A stretch of 64,000 bases of DNA, from contig JAPWJX010000003.1 of NCBI GenBank assembly GCA_028283855.1, positions 930,001 to 994,000 of the forward strand. The letters are read 5' to 3'. A program made the position numbers and the translations under genes. The notes under the pieces were generated by a model. It was given only the letters and a program-made list of their open reading frames with translations. It searched no databases and was not told where the DNA came from. Position 1 is the stretch's first letter, and each line of letters starts with the position of its first letter. This DNA comes from Verrucomicrobium sp. GTDB lineage: Bacteria > Verrucomicrobiota > Verrucomicrobiia > Methylacidiphilales > GAS474. This document shows, piece by piece, positions 11,598-25,211 of the stretch.

Positions 11598-12304
11598 CGG
11601 ACGCGCGATTCCCGCCGCGTCGGCGCGGGCGGCGCGGAAGCCCGGCGGAATCGGGGAAAGGCCTCCGCCTCCTCCAGCGTGGAAAGGAGCTGCGCGCGGG
11701 TGCGGGACTTCGCCAGGCTTTCCTCCGCCGCGGGGCCGGGAAAGACGGCGGCGCGGACGGGTACGCCCAGCGCCTTCAGAGCGGCGGGCAGCGGCACATA
11801 GGTTCCTTTTTCCCGTTCGCGGCCCGGCCAGTGGGTCAAAATATGGGAGCGCCCCGTGGGGAAAACGACGCGGGCGCCGTTTTCCCGGATTTCCCGCGCC
11901 ACGCGCCCGGCCATGTGCCGGTTGCGCCGGTTCATCTGCGCCAGGTTCTCCCCTTTCTCCCGGGAGGGGGCGGGGAGGTGTTGGAAGTCGGGCAGATCGA
12001 CGCAGAGGACCCGGTAGCCCAGGTCGAAGGCGCGGGCGGCGACGGAGAAGGGGCTCATGTCGGGCAGAGGCCGGGGGCGCTCGTTCGGCCAGAGCGCCTT
12101 TTCCAAAATCCGCGCGTCCAGGACGGAGCGCGGGGAATCAAGGTAGTCTTGCAGGGGCGCCTCCCATTCCTCCGGCATCTCCAGCGCCAGAGTGTCGTAG
12201 CCCTGGCGGCGGGCGGGAAGGAGGAGCCGTTCTTCCATCTCCTGATGGAAGGGGTTCCGGTGATTCTCTCCCAGGAGGAGGACGGGCTTAGGAGAGGAAC
12301 GCAT
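11594..12304 (-). CDS. ChaN/TraB-like (Tiki-superfamily) protein, copy A
   Basis: A 236-residue protein starting KPVLLLGENHRNPFHQ, with a G-E-x-H motif, a GYDTLALEMP strand, and later NRHMAGRVAREIRENGARVVFPTGRSH. These fit the EreA/ChaN/TraB-like superfamily, whose members use Glu/His pairs for metal or haem binding or hydrolysis. It is a clear tandem paralogue of the gene just upstream (VLLLGE-H, GYDT-ALE, YL-SPRS, RN-HMA, and a G-x-x-H near the C-terminal end are shared). Start ATG 12304 lies inside the end of the upstream paralogue (overlap with TAA at 12288-12290). No signal peptide. Function unassigned. Confidence 0.6.
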   Translation of the reverse strand: MRSSPKPVLLLGENHRNPFHQEMEERLLLPARRQGYDTLALEMPEEWEAPLQDYLDSPRSVLDARILEKALWPNERPRPLPDMSPFSVAARAFDLGYRVLCVDLPDFQHLPAPSREKGENLAQMNRRNRHMAGRVAREIRENGARVVFPTGRSHILTHWPGREREKGTYVPLPAALKALGVPVRAAVFPGPAAEESLAKSRTRAQLLSTLEEAEAFPRFRRASAPPAPTRRESRVR

Positions 12305-13074
12305 GGCCCAGGGCCTGGTCCCGCGTGAGGGCGGAGTCGAGCGGTTCGGCGCGGCGGCTCCAGGTGGCCTCGGTAAACGGCGGGGATGGGCCGGGGACGC
12401 TCAAAGGCCGCCTTCTGCAGCAGATCCCGTATCTGGAGAAACTCCGCCACGTCCCGGCCCTGGGCGGCGGGGTGGCGGTGCGCCTTCGGGTTGATGGAGC
12501 CAAGGCCCTGAAGGTCGAAGCCTTCCACCGGCACTTCCCGGAGGACGAGTTCCTGCACCAGGGAGTGGCCGAGAGGGGAAAAGAGGTGCATCTGGCCGGT
12601 TTCCACGACCATTGGGTGCCCCTGGCGGTAGGAGGCGGCGATGGCGTCGGCCATGTGCTCGTTGCGCCGCTGCATCCAGGCGTCCTGGGTCTCGCCGGGG
12701 CGGGGAAGACGGCCCAGGTGGGGAGAGTCGACGCAGGCGACGCGGTAGCCGAGGTCGTGCGCGTCTTCCGCCAGCCAGAGGGATTTCAGGAATTGGGCGT
12801 TGGAGCCGTTCCGGTACTGTTCCGGGTTTTGGCTGCGGGAGGCGGCGTCTTCCCGCATTTCCTGCCAGGAGGCCAGGACGGCGTCGTAATCTTTTTCGGA
12901 ACGGGGGGACGCCAGGTAACGATGGAGCGCCGGCTCGAAGTCGATGGGTTTTTCCAGGGCCACCGTGTCGTATCCGGCGGCTTGGACGTGGCGCAGCACG
13001 TCCCGTTCGATCACGTAATGGGGGCGCCGGTTGTGGGCTTCCCCCAGAAGGAGGACGGGCAGGGCGGCGGGCAT
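12288..13074 (-). CDS. ChaN/TraB-like protein, copy B; one-base frameshift near C-terminus
   Basis: Begins with ATG 13074 and reads PVLLLGEAHNRRPHYVIERD, GYDTVALEKPIDFEPAL, QRRNEHMADAIAASYRQGHP and VVETGQMHLFSP, matching copy A throughout. After the segment KAAFERPRPIPAVY (near 12380) the original frame would run 330 bp into copy A as nonsense. A shift of one base in about 12370-12400 gives a natural ending, TEATWSRRAEPLDSALTRDQ then ALGHAFLS-stop at 12288, which overlaps the start of copy A by 17 bp in normal operon style. With that one base removed the protein is about 261 residues. The most likely cause is a sequence error; a real frameshift is possible. Confidence 0.6.
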
Positions 13075-14484: not shown

Positions 14485-16462
14485 TTAGAAGGAGCGTTCC
14501 GCTTCCAGGAACCCGTGCAGGTGGCGGAGGCGGGTGGGGTGGCGCATCTTGCGGAGCGCCTTGGCCTCGATCTGCCGGATGCGCTCGCGGGTGACGCGGA
14601 ACTGGCGGCCGACTTCTTCCAGGGTGCGGGAGTAGCCGTCGACCAGGCCGAAGCGCTGCTCGATGACGGCGCGCTCGCGCTCCGTGAGGGTGTGGAGGAC
14701 GTGCTTGATCTTCTCCTTGAGGAGGGAGTAGGCGGTCATTTCCGAGGGGTTCTCGGCCGACTTGTCCTCGATGAAGTCCCCGAAGGTGGTGTCGTCGCTG
14801 TCGCCGACCTGGGCCTGGAGGGAAATGGGCTGCTGGGCCATCTTGAGGATGGCGCGCACGCGCTCGACGGGCATCTGGATCTCGTCGGAGATCTCGTCCG
14901 GCGTCGGCTCGCGGCCGAATTCCTGGACCAGCTGCTTCTGCACGCGCATCAGCTTGTTGATCGTCTCGATCATGTGGACCGGGATGCGGATGGTCCGCGC
15001 CTGGTCGGCGATGGAGCGGGTGATGGCCTGGCGGATCCACCAGGTGGCGTAGGTGGAGAATTTGTAGCCGCGGCGGTATTCGAATTTCTCGACCGCCTTC
15101 ATGAGGCCCATGTTGCCTTCCTGGATGAGGTCGAGGAAGGAGAGGCCGCGGTTGGTGTATTTTTTGGCGATGGAGATGACGAGGCGCAGGTTGGCCTCCA
15201 CCATTTCCGTTTTGGCGCGGAGGGCCTTGCGCAGCCAGTCCTTGAGTTCCAGGTGCTGTTCCTTGAACTCGGCCAGGGGGAGGCGGGCCTGCCCTTCCAT
15301 TTCCTTGAGGCGCTGGGAGATGTCCTTGAGCTTGGTGGCGGTCTCTTTGCTCTTGGAGCGGCTCTTTTCCAGGCGGGCCTTTCTCGGCCTCCAGCTCGCC
15401 GACCTGCTGGAAGAAGAGGTCGGAGGTGGCGGCGAAGTCCTCGATGACCTTCTGTTTGTAGAAGAATTTGACGAAGAGCTTTTCCAGGGCGGCCTGCTGC
15501 TTGGCCATTTCCTTCTGGGCGGCGGCGCGCAGGGCGGCGCTGGCGCCGGCCTTGGAGGCCTTGGCGTAGGCGGCGTCCAGCTTGACGGTGGCGGCCTCCA
15601 CGTTGCGGGTGAGGCCCTTGAGGGCCTTCATGTACTTCTCGCGGCCTTCGATCTTCTTGTCCTGGATGACGCGGTCGAAGCGTTCGCGGCCGTGCTCCAG
15701 CTTGCGGGCCAAATTGAGGTATTCGCGGGCGATGAAGCCGAAGCGGTTGAGGTGCTTTTGCACCATCAGCTCGGCGTCCTCGATCCGCTTGGAGATCTCG
15801 ACTTCCTGCTCGCGGGTGAGAAGGGGGACCTGCCCCATCTGCTTGAGGTACATCCGGACGGGGTCGTCCAGGATGTCGAGCTTGGCTTCCTTGTCCTCTT
15901 CCTGGGTCTCTTCTTCCTGCGGGGCGGCCTGCTTGTAGCGGTCGACCTCGGAGGAATCGATGATGTCGATTTCCAGGTTGCGGAGGAAGGCCAGGACGGC
16001 CTCGATCTCCTCCGGCTGGTTAAGGCTTTCCGGGAGGGCGTCGTTGAGGTCGTCGAAGGTGAGGTAGCCCTGCTCCTTGGCCAGTTTGACCAGGTCGCGC
16101 AGGCGGTCCTGGCGCTCCGGGTGCTGGGCCCAGACGGTGGCCAGCTTGTGGGCGGCGTCCCGTTCTTCGACGCTGAGGGCGTGGGAGGGGGCGGACGCGG
16201 AAGCGGCGGCGGCGGCCTTGAAGGCGCCCTTGCCGTTCTTGGAGGCGGCGGCCGGAGCGGTCGCGGCGGCTTTCTTTGCGGGAAGTTTTTTCGGCTCCGG
16301 GGCGGGCTTGGCGGCTGCCTTGGCGGGAGCGGGCTTGGCCGCCGGTTTGGCGGCGGCTTTCACCGGCTTGGCGGTAGCCTTGGCCTTCGTCGGCTTCGCG
16401 GGCGCCTTCGCTTTGGAAGGAGCGGAGGAAACCGTTTTTTTCTTGGATTTGCCGACGGCCAT
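14485..16462 (-). CDS. rpoD: Primary sigma factor RpoD, with one-base frameshift and Lys/Ala/Pro tail
   Basis: Housekeeping sigma-70. The first part starts at ATG 16462 and holds a Lys/Ala/Pro tail (about residues 1-95), region 1.1 ([20 protein letters not shown]-like), region 1.2 ([20 protein letters not shown]) and an insert region. At 15380-15382 the frame shifts: reading GAGAAGGCCCGC instead of GAGAAAGGCCCGC restores [20 protein letters not shown] and joins the second part. That part has region 2 ([38 protein letters not shown]), region 3 and region 4 ([20 protein letters not shown]) ending ...EAERSF. Corrected length is about 658 residues. Such an essential gene is unlikely to be broken, so an extra base in the sequence is the best explanation. 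It follows dnaG at 50 bp. Confidence 0.9.
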
Positions 16463-20369: not shown

Positions 20370-21205
20370 CGGCGGCGAAAAAGGAGCGCGTCCGTGTCCT
20401 GCGCCCGCCCGCCCGGTCCGCCGATTGGTGGCGCCTGGCCCACGATCCGGCGACCGTTTCCCGGCGCGCCCGGGAGGCGGCCCGCCGCCTGGGCCTGCGG
20501 CGCACGGTCCTTTTCCGCGAGGGGCAGGATGTGGTGGAGCTGCTGCAAAGCCCCGCCGCTTCCGCCAAGCAGGACCGCCCCCGCGTCTACCTTTCCGCCG
20601 GCATCCACGGGGACGAGCCGGGCGGCGTGGAGGGGCTGCTGCGCTGGATGGAGAGCCCGGCGGCCCGCGCGGCGGCGCGCCGCTTCCACCTGACCATCGT
20701 CCCCTGCGTCAATCCCTCCGGCCTGCGGGCCAACCGCCGCGCCGACGCGGCGGGCCGGGACCTGAACCGCTGTTTCGACAAGCGGCCTCCGGTCATCGCC
20801 GCGCTCCGCCGCCTCTGCGTCCGCCCCTTTGACCTGGGGCTGCTGCTCCATGAGGATTACGACGGCTGCGGCATCTATCTCTACGAGCTGGGTTCCGGCG
20901 GCGCGCGCTGGGGCCACCGGCTGCTGCGCGCCGCGCGGCCCTACTGCCCGCCCGACCCGAGCCGGACGATCGAGTCGTTCCCTTGCGACCGGGGCGTCAT
21001 TTACCGGGACGCCTCCGCCCTGTTCTTCCGGGCCTTTTTCGCGCAAATCGGCCTGCCGGAGGGGCCCTATCTTTACCTGCAGGGCACGCGGCGCGTTTTC
21101 ACGGTGGAGACGCCGTCGGAATTCGACCTGGCGGTGCGGGCGGAAGCCCATCGCGCGGTGATCGACGCGGCGCTCGAGCTGTTGGCCAAGGAGCGGAAGG
21201 CGTGA
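20351..21205 (+). CDS. M14-type zinc carboxypeptidase / succinylglutamate desuccinylase-like
   Basis: A 284-residue metallo-carboxypeptidase. Zinc ligands and substrate residues are seen in order: SAGIHGDEPGGVEGLLRW (H-x-x-E), NPSGLRANRRADAAGRDLNR (N-R pair for carboxylate binding), LLHEDYDGCGIYLYE (third zinc ligand His) and ETPSEFDLAVR (catalytic Glu region). Start is GTG 20351 with GGAGGAG four bases upstream, inside the end of mazG. Its stop overlaps the pheA GTG start (GTGA). Natural substrate unknown; murein peptide or acyl-amino-acid are the usual options. Confidence 0.8.
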   Translation: MAAAKIAAAKKERVRVLRPPARSADWWRLAHDPATVSRRAREAARRLGLRRTVLFREGQDVVELLQSPAASAKQDRPRVYLSAGIHGDEPGGVEGLLRWMESPAARAAARRFHLTIVPCVNPSGLRANRRADAAGRDLNRCFDKRPPVIAALRRLCVRPFDLGLLLHEDYDGCGIYLYELGSGGARWGHRLLRAARPYCPPDPSRTIESFPCDRGVIYRDASALFFRAFFAQIGLPEGPYLYLQGTRRVFTVETPSEFDLAVRAEAHRAVIDAALELLAKERKA

Positions 21206-22005
21206 GCGCGGAGGTTGGCTACTTCGGGGAGGAGGGGAGCTTTTCCCACCGGGCCGCCGCGCGGCGCTTTCCGGGCGCGGCCTTGCGGCCGTTTTCCCTG
21301 GTCGGCCAGGCCTTCGCCGCCCTTGGGGAAGTGGCGCAGATCGTCGTGCCGATTGAGAACGCCTCCAGCGGCGTCATCCCTGACACCATCGACCATCTCA
21401 TCACGGCCCTGCCCGCGGGCGCGGCGGTGCGGGAGTGCCTGGCGATGCCGATCGCGCTGGCGCTCCTGGCGCGGAAGGCGGGGGAGGAGGTGCGCGTCGT
21501 CTATTCCCACGCCGCCGCCCTGGCCCACGCCCGGACGTGGCTGGCCGCGCACTACCCGGCGGCCCGGCTGGTGCCGGTGGAAAGCACTTCCCTGGCGGCC
21601 AAGCGCGCGTGGGAGGAGCCGGGCGCGGCCGCCCTGGCGGGCGACCAGGCCGCCCTTCTCTACGGGCTGGAGACGGTGCGGGCCGACGTCCAGGCGGGCG
21701 TGCCGAACCGGACGAAGTTCTACGTGATCGGAAAGCCGGTGGCGGGCGGCCCGGCGGCGACGCACACGGCGCTGGTCTGCGAGCTGCCGCACACGCCGGG
21801 CAGCCTCGTCGGCGCGCTGCAGGCGGTGGCGGCGCAGGGCCTCAATTTGACGATGATCCAGTCCCGGCCGATCCCGGGCCGGTTCGACGAATACCGCTTT
21901 TTCCTGGAATACGAGGGGACGGGCGAGGCGGCGCTCGACGCGCTCCGTCCGGCGACGACGGCGCTCTCCGTCCTGGGCCGCTATCCGATCGTCGAGATCG
22001 CCTAG
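21202..22005 (+). CDS. pheA: Prephenate dehydratase (monofunctional)
   Basis: A 267-residue enzyme that converts prephenate to phenylpyruvate in phenylalanine synthesis. The dehydratase domain begins VGYFGEEGSFSHRAAARRF and contains VPIENASSGVIPDTIDHL and NRTKFYVIG (the T-R/K-F catalytic motif, here TKF). A C-terminal ACT domain with HTPGSLVGALQAVAAQGLNL and IQSRPIPGRFDEYRFFLEYE is the phenylalanine feedback site. There is no chorismate mutase part. Start GTG 21202 overlaps the upstream TGA and has AAGGAG upstream. The end overlaps the next gene by 4 bp (CTAG). Confidence 0.93.
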   Translation: MSAEVGYFGEEGSFSHRAAARRFPGAALRPFSLVGQAFAALGEVAQIVVPIENASSGVIPDTIDHLITALPAGAAVRECLAMPIALALLARKAGEEVRVVYSHAAALAHARTWLAAHYPAARLVPVESTSLAAKRAWEEPGAAALAGDQAALLYGLETVRADVQAGVPNRTKFYVIGKPVAGGPAATHTALVCELPHTPGSLVGALQAVAAQGLNLTMIQSRPIPGRFDEYRFFLEYEGTGEAALDALRPATTALSVLGRYPIVEIA

Positions 22006-23078
22006 AAGTTGCCCGGGTCGGAGGGGTGGTCGAAGGCGTGGATCGCCTCCTTCACGTCCGGGCGGGCCAGGAGTTCCGCGCGGGTGGGGAACGGCGCGGC
22101 CAGCTTTTCCTTTTCCGGCGCGGGTTCCAGCAGGCGGCCGTGGGCGGCCACGGCTTCCTCGGCGTAAAAGTAGATCGACTTGATCTCGTTGACGACCTGG
22201 TCCCTCAGCATCTCGGCGAAGTAGGGGTCCTCGGCGGCTTCCGCGCTTTTTTCCTGGCGGTAGGCTTCCTTTTGCCGGGCGTAGGGGATGCGGGTGGCGG
22301 CGCGCAGGACGGACTGGGCCACGGAGGGGGCGGGCAGGCCGTAGCGGCTTTCGATCTCGTCATGGTAGACGTGGCCTTCCAGCGCTTCTTCGTGCAGTTC
22401 CCGGGGGTCCTGGCCGGTCAGCTTTTCCAGGTGGCCCAGGGCGGCGGCGCCCGCTTCCTTCAAGGCGGCCAGGCCGCCCCGGTCGCCCTCGCGGAGCTGG
22501 GCTTCCTTGGCGCGGGCCAGGAGGGCGGCCAGGTCGTCGAGGGTGGCGTCCAGGTCGCCCTCCGCCTCCCGGGTGTGGAGGTGGGCGTAGGTTTCCTGGT
22601 AGTCGAGCGCGTCGGGCTGCCGGGCGGGCTGGCCGCGCTCGATCTGCGCGGCGGTGGCGCGCAGGCCGGAGGCGGCCAGCTGGACCAGGTCCTCCACGGC
22701 GAGGGGGGCGGCGTCCGCCGCGCCCGCCATGCCGGCGGCGTGGGCGGCCAGTTTCTCCATCCCCAGGACGGCGGCGGCGGGGGAGGTGGGGACGGGGCGG
22801 CCCTGGCGGGTTTCCTCCGCCTCCTGGGCGCGGGCGGCGGCCTCGATCCGCGCGCGGACGTCGCCGGGGGAGAAGGCGTTGAGCAGCTCTTCCGTTTGGT
22901 GGACGAAGCGGGCGAGGTGCTGGGGGGTGTATTCCTCGGCGTTGGTGAGGGTGGAGGCCTCCAGGTAGTGGAAGCGCTCGGCGGCGGCGCGGGGCAGGTC
23001 TTCCGCGGCGGCGGGCAGGGAGGAGGGCCAGACGTCGGGCTGGTCGATCAGGTTCCAGGCGGCGGTGAAGTCGGTCAT
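22002..23078 (-). CDS. Unknown protein, paralogue 1 of tandem pair
   Basis: A 358-residue, acidic, largely helical protein with no signal peptide or membrane helix and no family I recognise. It is clearly homologous to the protein encoded 7 bp upstream. Shared landmarks, in order: an N-terminal M-T-D-F-x-A-A-W segment, an F-x-x-L-E near residue 36, an IEAAA block near 77, GLPAPSVAQSVLRAATRIPY about 100 residues before the end, IKSIYFYAEEAVAAHGR, and a C-terminal FPTRAELLARPDV motif. Heavy Ala/Glu content and regular spacing suggest a bundle of helices. Start ATG 23078; stop shares CTAG with pheA. Function unknown. Confidence 0.75.
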   Translation of the reverse strand: MTDFTAAWNLIDQPDVWPSSLPAAAEDLPRAAAERFHYLEASTLTNAEEYTPQHLARFVHQTEELLNAFSPGDVRARIEAAARAQEAEETRQGRPVPTSPAAAVLGMEKLAAHAAGMAGAADAAPLAVEDLVQLAASGLRATAAQIERGQPARQPDALDYQETYAHLHTREAEGDLDATLDDLAALLARAKEAQLREGDRGGLAALKEAGAAALGHLEKLTGQDPRELHEEALEGHVYHDEIESRYGLPAPSVAQSVLRAATRIPYARQKEAYRQEKSAEAAEDPYFAEMLRDQVVNEIKSIYFYAEEAVAAHGRLLEPAPEKEKLAAPFPTRAELLARPDVKEAIHAFDHPSDPGNF

Positions 23079-23085
23079 GGCGGGG

Positions 23086-24123
23086 TTAGGCTTGGTAGGT
23101 GTCGCCGGGGAGGGGCTTAAGCGATTGCTGGACGTTGGGGCGAGCCAGGATTTGGTCGCGGGAGGGGAAGCGGGCGGCGTGGAACGGAAAGCTGGCGTCG
23201 CGGGCCAGGGCCGGCTCGAGGGCGATCCGGCTGCCGTGGTGGGCCAGGGTTTCCTCCGCGTAAAAGTAGATGGTTTGCAGTTCCTCGATTATTTTGCCCA
23301 AGTGCGCGATCTGGACGTCCGGGTCCTGGGTTTCCTGGCGGCTTTTCTCGTATTCCCTGGCGTAGGGGATGCGGCTGGCGGCGTGGAGGATGCCGCTGGC
23401 CACGGACGGCGCGGGGAAGCCGTGCCGGGCGCGCTGTTCCTCGGCGGAGACCTGCCATTCCAGAGCCCTCTCATGCCAGGAGGCGGCGGGCGTGCCGGTC
23501 AGGCGGACCAGGCCCTCCAGGGCCGTGGCGCCGACGTTCCGCAGGGCGCGCAGGCCGCCCAGGTCGCCGGCGCCCAGTTGGGAATCCTTGGCGGCGTGCA
23601 GGCCCTGATCCAAATCGGCCAAGAGTTCTATCGGCTCCCGTTCCGGGCGGAGGAGGGAGAAGGTCTGCTCGAAGCCGAGGGGGGCGGGCGTTTCCCGGGG
23701 CGCGGCGGCGCGGGCCGCGTGGGCGGTGAGGCCGCGCAGGCCGGTGGCGGCCAGGTCGACGGCGCCCTGGAGGGTGGCGGGCCGGGCCTGGGTTTCCATT
23801 TCCAGGAGGGAATCGGCCAGGGAGGCGGGGGCGGGGAGGCTTTCCCATTTCCGCCGCTGTTCCTGGCGGCCCGCGGCGGCTTCGATCGATTGGCGGAGGC
23901 TTTCCGGCCCGGGATGGAAGGGGGCGATGATCCTTTCGACGTCCCGGACGAAGCTGGCGAAGCCTTGGGCGCGTTCGGGATTGAGATAGGAAGCGGTTTC
24001 GACTTCCAGTTTGTGAAAGAGCGTGGCGACGGCGGCAAGGGCTTCCGGGAGGGGGGCGGGAAGCGGAGAGGTCTCTTCCGCGGACGCGTCAACGAGGGTC
24101 CAGGCGGCTTTGAAGTCGGTCAT
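23086..24123 (-). CDS. Unknown protein, paralogue 2 of tandem pair
   Basis: A 345-residue helical soluble protein beginning MTDFKAAWTLVDAS, with GFPAPSVASGILHAASRIPY, LQTIYFYAEETLAHHGSRIA and FPSRDQILARPNVQQSL matching paralogue 1 at the same relative places. The middle (an arginine/alanine-rich region between about residues 120 and 200) is the least alike, so the duplication is not recent. It is the first gene of a two-gene unit (7 bp gap) and is divergent from hldE1 with an 89 bp spacer. The two conserved C-terminal motifs (RIPYAR, IYFYAEE) would make good family signatures. No known domain is visible. Confidence 0.75.
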   Translation of the reverse strand: MTDFKAAWTLVDASAEETSPLPAPLPEALAAVATLFHKLEVETASYLNPERAQGFASFVRDVERIIAPFHPGPESLRQSIEAAAGRQEQRRKWESLPAPASLADSLLEMETQARPATLQGAVDLAATGLRGLTAHAARAAAPRETPAPLGFEQTFSLLRPEREPIELLADLDQGLHAAKDSQLGAGDLGGLRALRNVGATALEGLVRLTGTPAASWHERALEWQVSAEEQRARHGFPAPSVASGILHAASRIPYAREYEKSRQETQDPDVQIAHLGKIIEELQTIYFYAEETLAHHGSRIALEPALARDASFPFHAARFPSRDQILARPNVQQSLKPLPGDTYQA

Positions 24124-24212
24124 GGCGGGGGGCTCCGGTTCGTCTCCCTTGTTTTCCCTGTTCCTGCCGGGTGACGAAGCGTTCTCTTTATGCTAAAGCC
24201 CTACGCCTTGCA

Positions 24213-25211
24213 ATGAATTCCCTCTCCGTTGCCCGCTGCCAGGAGCTCCTGGCGAAGTTCTCCTCCCTCCGCGTCCTGGTCGTCGGCGACTTGATGCTCG
24301 ACGAGTTCATCTGGGGGCAGGTCTCCCGCATCTCGCCGGAGGCCCCGGTGCCGGTGGTGGAGGTGCAAAGCTCCTCCTTCTACCCCGGCGGCGCGGCGAA
24401 CGTGGTCCGCAACCTGGACGCCTTCACGCACAGGACTTCCGTGGTGGGCGCGATCGGCGCCGATCCGGCGGGCGGCCAGCTGCGCGGCCTCCTGGAGGCG
24501 GGCGGCTGCGACGTCTCCGGCCTGGTGGAGCTTTCCGACCGGCCCACGACGCACAAGATGCGGATCATCGGCCGCCAGCAGCAGATCGTCCGGGTGGACC
24601 GGGAGACGATCGGGGCGCTGCCCGCGGAGGCGAAGGCGCGCGTGGTCGCCGCGCTGCGCCGGGAGATCCCGCTGTGCGACGCGGTCCTCATCGAGGATTA
24701 CGGCAAGGGCCTGCTGGACCAGGAGATCGTCGACGCGGCGATCGCCGCCGCGCGGGAGCACAAGAAGATCGTCACCGTCGACCTGAATCCGAAGAACCCG
24801 CTGGACTGGCGGGGGGCCACGGCGGTGAAGCCGAACCGCCTGGAGGCCTTGGCCTGCGCGGGTGTGGACGACCGGGGCGGCCATGACAAGACGGCCGTGG
24901 ACCGCGCCGCCGCGATCCTGCGGGAGCGCTGGCAGACCGATTACCTCCTCATCACCCTGGGGGAGGAGGGAATGTTCCTTTTCGAGAAGGGGAAGGCCGA
25001 GCCTTACCACACCCCGACGCGGGCGCAGAAGGTGTTCGACGTTTCCGGCGCGGGGGACACGGCCATCGCCCTCTTCACCCTGGCGCTGGCGGCGGGCGCG
25101 ACCGGCATTGAGGCGGCGGAGATCTCCAACCACGCTTCCGGCGTGGTCGTCGGCAAGCTGGGCACGGCGACGCTGACGCCCCAGGAGCTGCTGGAAAGCC
25201 TGCAGCCATGA
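24213..25211 (+). CDS. hldE1: D-glycero-beta-D-manno-heptose-7-phosphate kinase (HldE N-domain type)
   Basis: A 332-residue PfkB/ribokinase-family enzyme that phosphorylates heptose-7-P at position 1 for LPS inner-core heptose. Visible: VVGDLMLDEFIWGQVSRISP (substrate loop of RfaE1), YPGGAANVVRNLDAF, VDLNPKNPLDWRGATAVKPN and the PfkB signature VFDVSGAGDTAIALFTLALA with the catalytic Asp in GAGD. The adenylyltransferase half of E. coli HldE is absent, so that step needs another gene. Start ATG 24213; first gene of the LPS-core operon, and its stop overlaps the next start. Confidence 0.92.
   Translation: MNSLSVARCQELLAKFSSLRVLVVGDLMLDEFIWGQVSRISPEAPVPVVEVQSSSFYPGGAANVVRNLDAFTHRTSVVGAIGADPAGGQLRGLLEAGGCDVSGLVELSDRPTTHKMRIIGRQQQIVRVDRETIGALPAEAKARVVAALRREIPLCDAVLIEDYGKGLLDQEIVDAAIAAAREHKKIVTVDLNPKNPLDWRGATAVKPNRLEALACAGVDDRGGHDKTAVDRAAAILRERWQTDYLLITLGEEGMFLFEKGKAEPYHTPTRAQKVFDVSGAGDTAIALFTLALAAGATGIEAAEISNHASGVVVGKLGTATLTPQELLESLQP

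Follow-up and report, generated by a model that had tools for sequence, protein, structure and literature searches.

A lineage-restricted tandem pair of paralogous genes, without detectable relatives, between pheA and rfaE1 in a Verrucomicrobium genome

The DNA considered here (the window) is a stretch of 64,000 nucleotides from Verrucomicrobium sp. (GenBank assembly GCA_028283855.1, contig JAPWJX010000003.1, positions 930,001 to 994,000 of the forward strand), and the subject of what follows is a pair of genes within it, referred to as A and B, which are listed together with the surrounding features in Table 1. Two adjacent open reading frames of 358 and 345 residues had been picked out in a first-pass annotation, made by a model from the letters alone, and both were recovered at the same positions. 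On the minus strand B lies upstream and A downstream, and the very short gap between the stop codon of B and the start codon of A is consistent with co-transcription, which we infer from this spacing. The start codons of both genes are preceded by an identical run of 7 nucleotides, while at the other end of the pair the stop codons of A and pheA overlap in the tetranucleotide CTAG (22002-22005). A consensus scan of the intergenic region between B and rfaE1 returned no sigma-70-like site, and no Rfam elements were found at the A/B locus.

Table 1. Positions within the window of the A/B gene pair, its sequence features and its immediate neighbours.
Feature	Coordinates	Strand	Remarks
Gene B, 345 aa	23086..24123	minus	First of pair; predicted soluble and all-helical; outside known families
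Gene A, 358 aa	22002..23078	minus	Second of pair; paralogous to B (39% identity)
Gap between B stop and A start, 7 bp	23079..23085	minus	
B-rfaE1 intergenic region	24124..24212		rfaE1 divergent from B; expected site of any promoter for the pair
MTDFxAAW N-terminal motif	A 23055..23078; B 24100-24123	minus	
Well conserved stretch of A with GLPAPSVA, RIPYAR and IYFYAEE	22155..22340	minus	Predicted C-terminal helical bundle
pheA	21205-22005		Convergent with A
rfaE1	24213-25211		Divergent from B

Two other minus-strand genes of the window deserve a brief mention in their own right. The gene for the housekeeping sigma factor, rpoD (14485-16462), appears as two overlapping frames, split near 15300-15400, while in the complete same-genus genome G002 it is a single open frame of 681 aa (94% identity); since the gene should be essential, the split is most likely a single assembly indel error. 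In a ChaN/TraB-like protein of the Tiki superfamily (12055-13074) the C-terminal part resembles a wrong frame, possibly through a frameshift.

Both A and B are protein-coding on the minus strand. When read on that strand, their GC content at the three codon positions (0.78/0.47/0.92 for A and 0.73/0.51/0.84 for B) follows the pattern of the neighbouring genes, and a pairwise codon model of A against B gives omega in the range 0.04-0.25, with omega = 1 rejected (2dlnL 28.9-48.6) and omega = 0.5 disfavoured (2dlnL 6.0-14.8); for the in-phase antisense reading of the same pair omega is 0.6. The differences between the two copies are less frequent at third codon positions (0.39) than at first positions (0.45), whereas the pheA and rfaE1 orthologues of the same genus show the usual third-position excess (0.42-0.46, against 0.17-0.28 at first positions); with codon use controlled for, the peculiarity of A and B is marginal. 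One might take this unusual distribution, together with the plus-strand frames that stay long and open across both A and B in a GC-rich genome, to mean that the two are chance open frames in GC-rich DNA and that the true genes are the in-phase plus-strand frames, but such a reading is highly improbable given the codon-position composition, the much lower omega on the minus strand, the conservation of the start codon and of the 7 nucleotides before it, and the Gly-rich character of the plus-strand products, which is typical of antisense translations.

That the two genes are paralogues sharing purifying constraint is equally clear. Their BLASTP alignment runs from residue 1 to roughly residue 346, with 139 of 355 positions identical (39%; 183 bits, E = 2e-59), and their Smith-Waterman score is 519, where 300 shuffles average 50 (sd 8, maximum 80), so that the end-to-end alignment proposed on first reading is borne out; the signature motifs quoted at that stage are all present. 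Over aligned codons the identity is 42%. The proteins had also been described as diverged in the middle and as having both been kept for a long time, and these statements too agree with what was found: identity falls to 21-28% in blocks beginning at A residues 149 and 268, compared with 47-57% in A 178-267 and A 298-325, and synonymous sites are close to saturation while omega = 1 is rejected. Near-saturation of synonymous sites extends to the same-genus orthologues, with the consequence that dS estimates for A and B are unsuitable as a clock and give no relative dates for duplication and insertion. A recent, fast-diverging duplication was considered, the same codon being used at 71% of identical residues as against 55% expected, and was set aside; measured against a null that preserves the codon usage of the two genes, the surplus of shared codons is marginal (p = 0.04-0.06), which weakens the impression of recency.

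Some further possibilities concerning the sequences were tried and rejected. The motif MTDFxAAW occurs only twice in this genome, at the N-termini of A and B themselves, and is absent from the two other same-genus genomes; as there is no third protein carrying it, the idea of a common targeting tag was dropped. Nor is an internal repeat relating the N-terminal to the C-terminal half supported (hhalign probability 0.7%).

Within the sets searched, A and B are without any detectable relative other than each other. In their own genome they match only one another (about 170 bits), and profile searches with Pfam, NCBIfam, PHROGs and PADLOC gave neither of them a hit above cut-off (best E 0.069 or worse), as did a comparison with PDB sequences, which is in line with the earlier suggestion of an undescribed family with no recognised domain. 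No convincing homologue was found in 98 relatives, in 62 genomes of the order, in 384 of the class or in 388 of the phylum, and an A/B profile gave no match at E <= 10 in G002; the hope of finding the motifs preserved in homologues elsewhere among the PVC bacteria was thus disappointed, and this holds even for so close and complete a genome as that of G002. This last result carries particular weight, as A and B still recognise each other at about 170 bits despite their near-saturated synonymous distance, so that a similarly old orthologue in G002 ought to have been detected. Motif scans of GTDB and of IMG/VR were negative, as was tblastn of phages and plasmids, although it must be borne in mind that GTDB as a whole was scanned with short exact peptide patterns only, which diverged relatives outside the phylum could escape. 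Four weak genome matches (E 0.003-0.008) did emerge, and all were taken as chance: L010 is an antisense-like frame, L011 lies antisense to a gene for a TonB-type receptor, L012 resembles uracil-DNA glycosylase, and L013 is XseA.

As regards the proteins themselves, both are acidic (net charge -26 for A and -11 for B), rich in alanine (21% and 17%, respectively) and devoid of cysteine. Inspection by eye reveals no signal peptide in either, and the highest 19-residue Kyte-Doolittle means (1.19 for A, 1.01 for B) lie below the level usual for a membrane helix, so that neither protein has a membrane helix by this measure; the first-pass annotation had reached the same view on both counts. AlphaFold2 models are all-helical (mean pLDDT 67.7 for A and 72.2 for B), and in them an N-terminal helical part is followed by a linker of low confidence (A 150-174, B 141-161) and then by the C-terminal bundle, which holds most of the conserved motifs. 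Each model was built from an alignment of two sequences, for which reason pTM is only 0.45 (A) and 0.49 (B) and the domain limits are uncertain. Taken together, these results support a description of A and B as predicted soluble, all-helical proteins in which a better conserved C-terminal bundle would be joined to the N-terminal part by a variable linker.

Comparison of the models with known structures leads to a rather generic likeness. Foldseek searches against the PDB and against viral models gave nothing at E <= 0.001 (best E 0.16), while VIA-align superposes the C-terminal bundle on designed four-helix bundles, on FAT (of focal adhesion kinase) and on vinculin, with Z of roughly 5-7 and rmsd of roughly 2.5-4.5 A over about 95 residues. 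The predicted bundle of A and B may share its arrangement with these proteins, but there is no sequence similarity to any of them and the Z values lie under the level that would indicate kinship among helical bundles; moreover, coming as they do from models of low to medium confidence and being spread over many unrelated bundles, they may reflect a common arrangement and nothing else. The new fold contemplated at first reading is not demonstrated by models with pTM values of 0.45-0.49 and so generic a bundle likeness.

What such proteins might do can be addressed only in terms of a broad class. As neither a catalytic family nor an export signal was recognised and the architecture is that of a helical bundle, a cytoplasmic binding or scaffold class is the most likely one, and we tentatively suppose, at rather less than even chances, that A and B have a non-enzymatic binding role, in which the products would work in the cytoplasm and bind through the conserved C-terminal bundle, possibly A on B as a heteromer. 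The adjacency of the genes and their 7-bp spacing are what suggest such a putative heteromer, which we regard as doubtful. The main competing possibility is that A and B are enzymes, or helical proteins binding a metal or other ligand, with a polar pocket and with copies differing in substrate. Despite an identity of just 42% across their aligned codons, the two copies strictly conserve H37, E40, D199, H229, E230, R263, Y266, R268, Y303, Y305, E307, E308 and H313, and candidate pocket residues fall in FHxLE, GDxGGL, HExALE, RIPYAR and IYFYAEE...H; an active site could just as well be built from the conserved His, Asp, Glu, Tyr and Arg residues. However, conservation across two sequences is weak evidence for a site, no enzyme family is matched, and ferritin-like diiron proteins, which carry ExxH and Glu ligands in their bundle helices, differ from A and B in that the A/B alignment has no ExxH common to both copies. 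On balance an enzymatic or ligand-binding function appears unlikely, perhaps one chance in a handful.

The genomic context bears on how the pair came to be where it is. In G002 the order aspA-like, pheA, rfaE1, hisB-like is kept, with pheA and rfaE1 just 6 bp apart, while in the window the A/B pair occupies exactly this junction; from the adjacency in G002 it follows that the pair most likely entered the lineage by insertion. At all 11 loci inspected in f8, another family of the order, pheA adjoins rfaE1 (divergently) without the pair. At the loci inspected in families f2, f3, f4 and f9 no pheA was found within 1.5 kb of rfaE1, so that the ancestral junction is known from families f1 and f8 only, and the other same-genus genome, G001, is uninformative on the point as its contig ends beside rfaE1. 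The evidence as a whole supports insertion of the pair at the pheA-rfaE1 junction and makes a gain by the lineage of the window a likelier course of events than repeated losses elsewhere. It may be noted separately that the adjacency of pheA and rfaE1 in two families of the order takes different forms, tandem in G002 and divergent in f8, which implies more than one rearrangement at this junction.

Two other accounts of this history need to be weighed, and each seems to us distinctly improbable, to about the same degree. According to the first, A and B are ancestral genes of the order that have been lost or have diverged past recognition elsewhere; the duplication is certainly old, its synonymous sites being near saturation, and sampling of the genus consists of two other genomes, one of them 82% complete, but many independent losses would be required, and the absence of a like-aged orthologue from G002, already described, tells directly against it. 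According to the second, the pair is cargo (defence, counter-defence or effector) delivered to the pheA-rfaE1 junction by a phage or mobile element. Rapid gain and loss and missing relatives are in keeping with such cargo, as is insertion in one lineage only. However, no tRNA or clear flanking repeat accompanies the insertion, the neighbours are housekeeping genes, the composition of A and B resembles that of the host, and no relatives turned up in phages, plasmids or IMG/VR, with PADLOC likewise giving no match.

We return to the preferred reading, that of a lineage-restricted pair, duplicated long ago and gained by insertion, which as a statement about genomic history alone we hold to be quite likely; the fuller statement, in which this history and the protein class are taken together for an ORFan pair of real genes arising from an old tandem duplication, is somewhat better than an even bet. 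The source would be a poorly sampled gene pool, from which either the pair was transferred or a single gene that was then duplicated. A much stronger proposition, that A and B form an obligate heteromer that arose within one lineage and are the first two representatives of a family with a distinct fold, we consider most unlikely. The family is undescribed, although as a kind of finding orphan pairs are common in poorly sampled bacteria. The present case is a clean example of a probable gain, the empty site being seen in the complete G002 genome, and of retention as two diverged copies within one lineage. If the genes are expressed and needed, they would constitute a tractable case of lineage-specific gene innovation; for the present they are one more orphan pair among the very many on record.

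The closest general comparison is with the novel gene families of uncultivated prokaryotes in the FESNov catalogue, which like A and B match no annotated family and are restricted to particular clades. Inclusion in that catalogue calls for presence in multiple species and for dN/dS below 0.5 (PMC10849945). In the first respect A and B differ, being found as two copies in one genome, while in the second they are alike, their omega being 0.04-0.25 (from one sequence pair).
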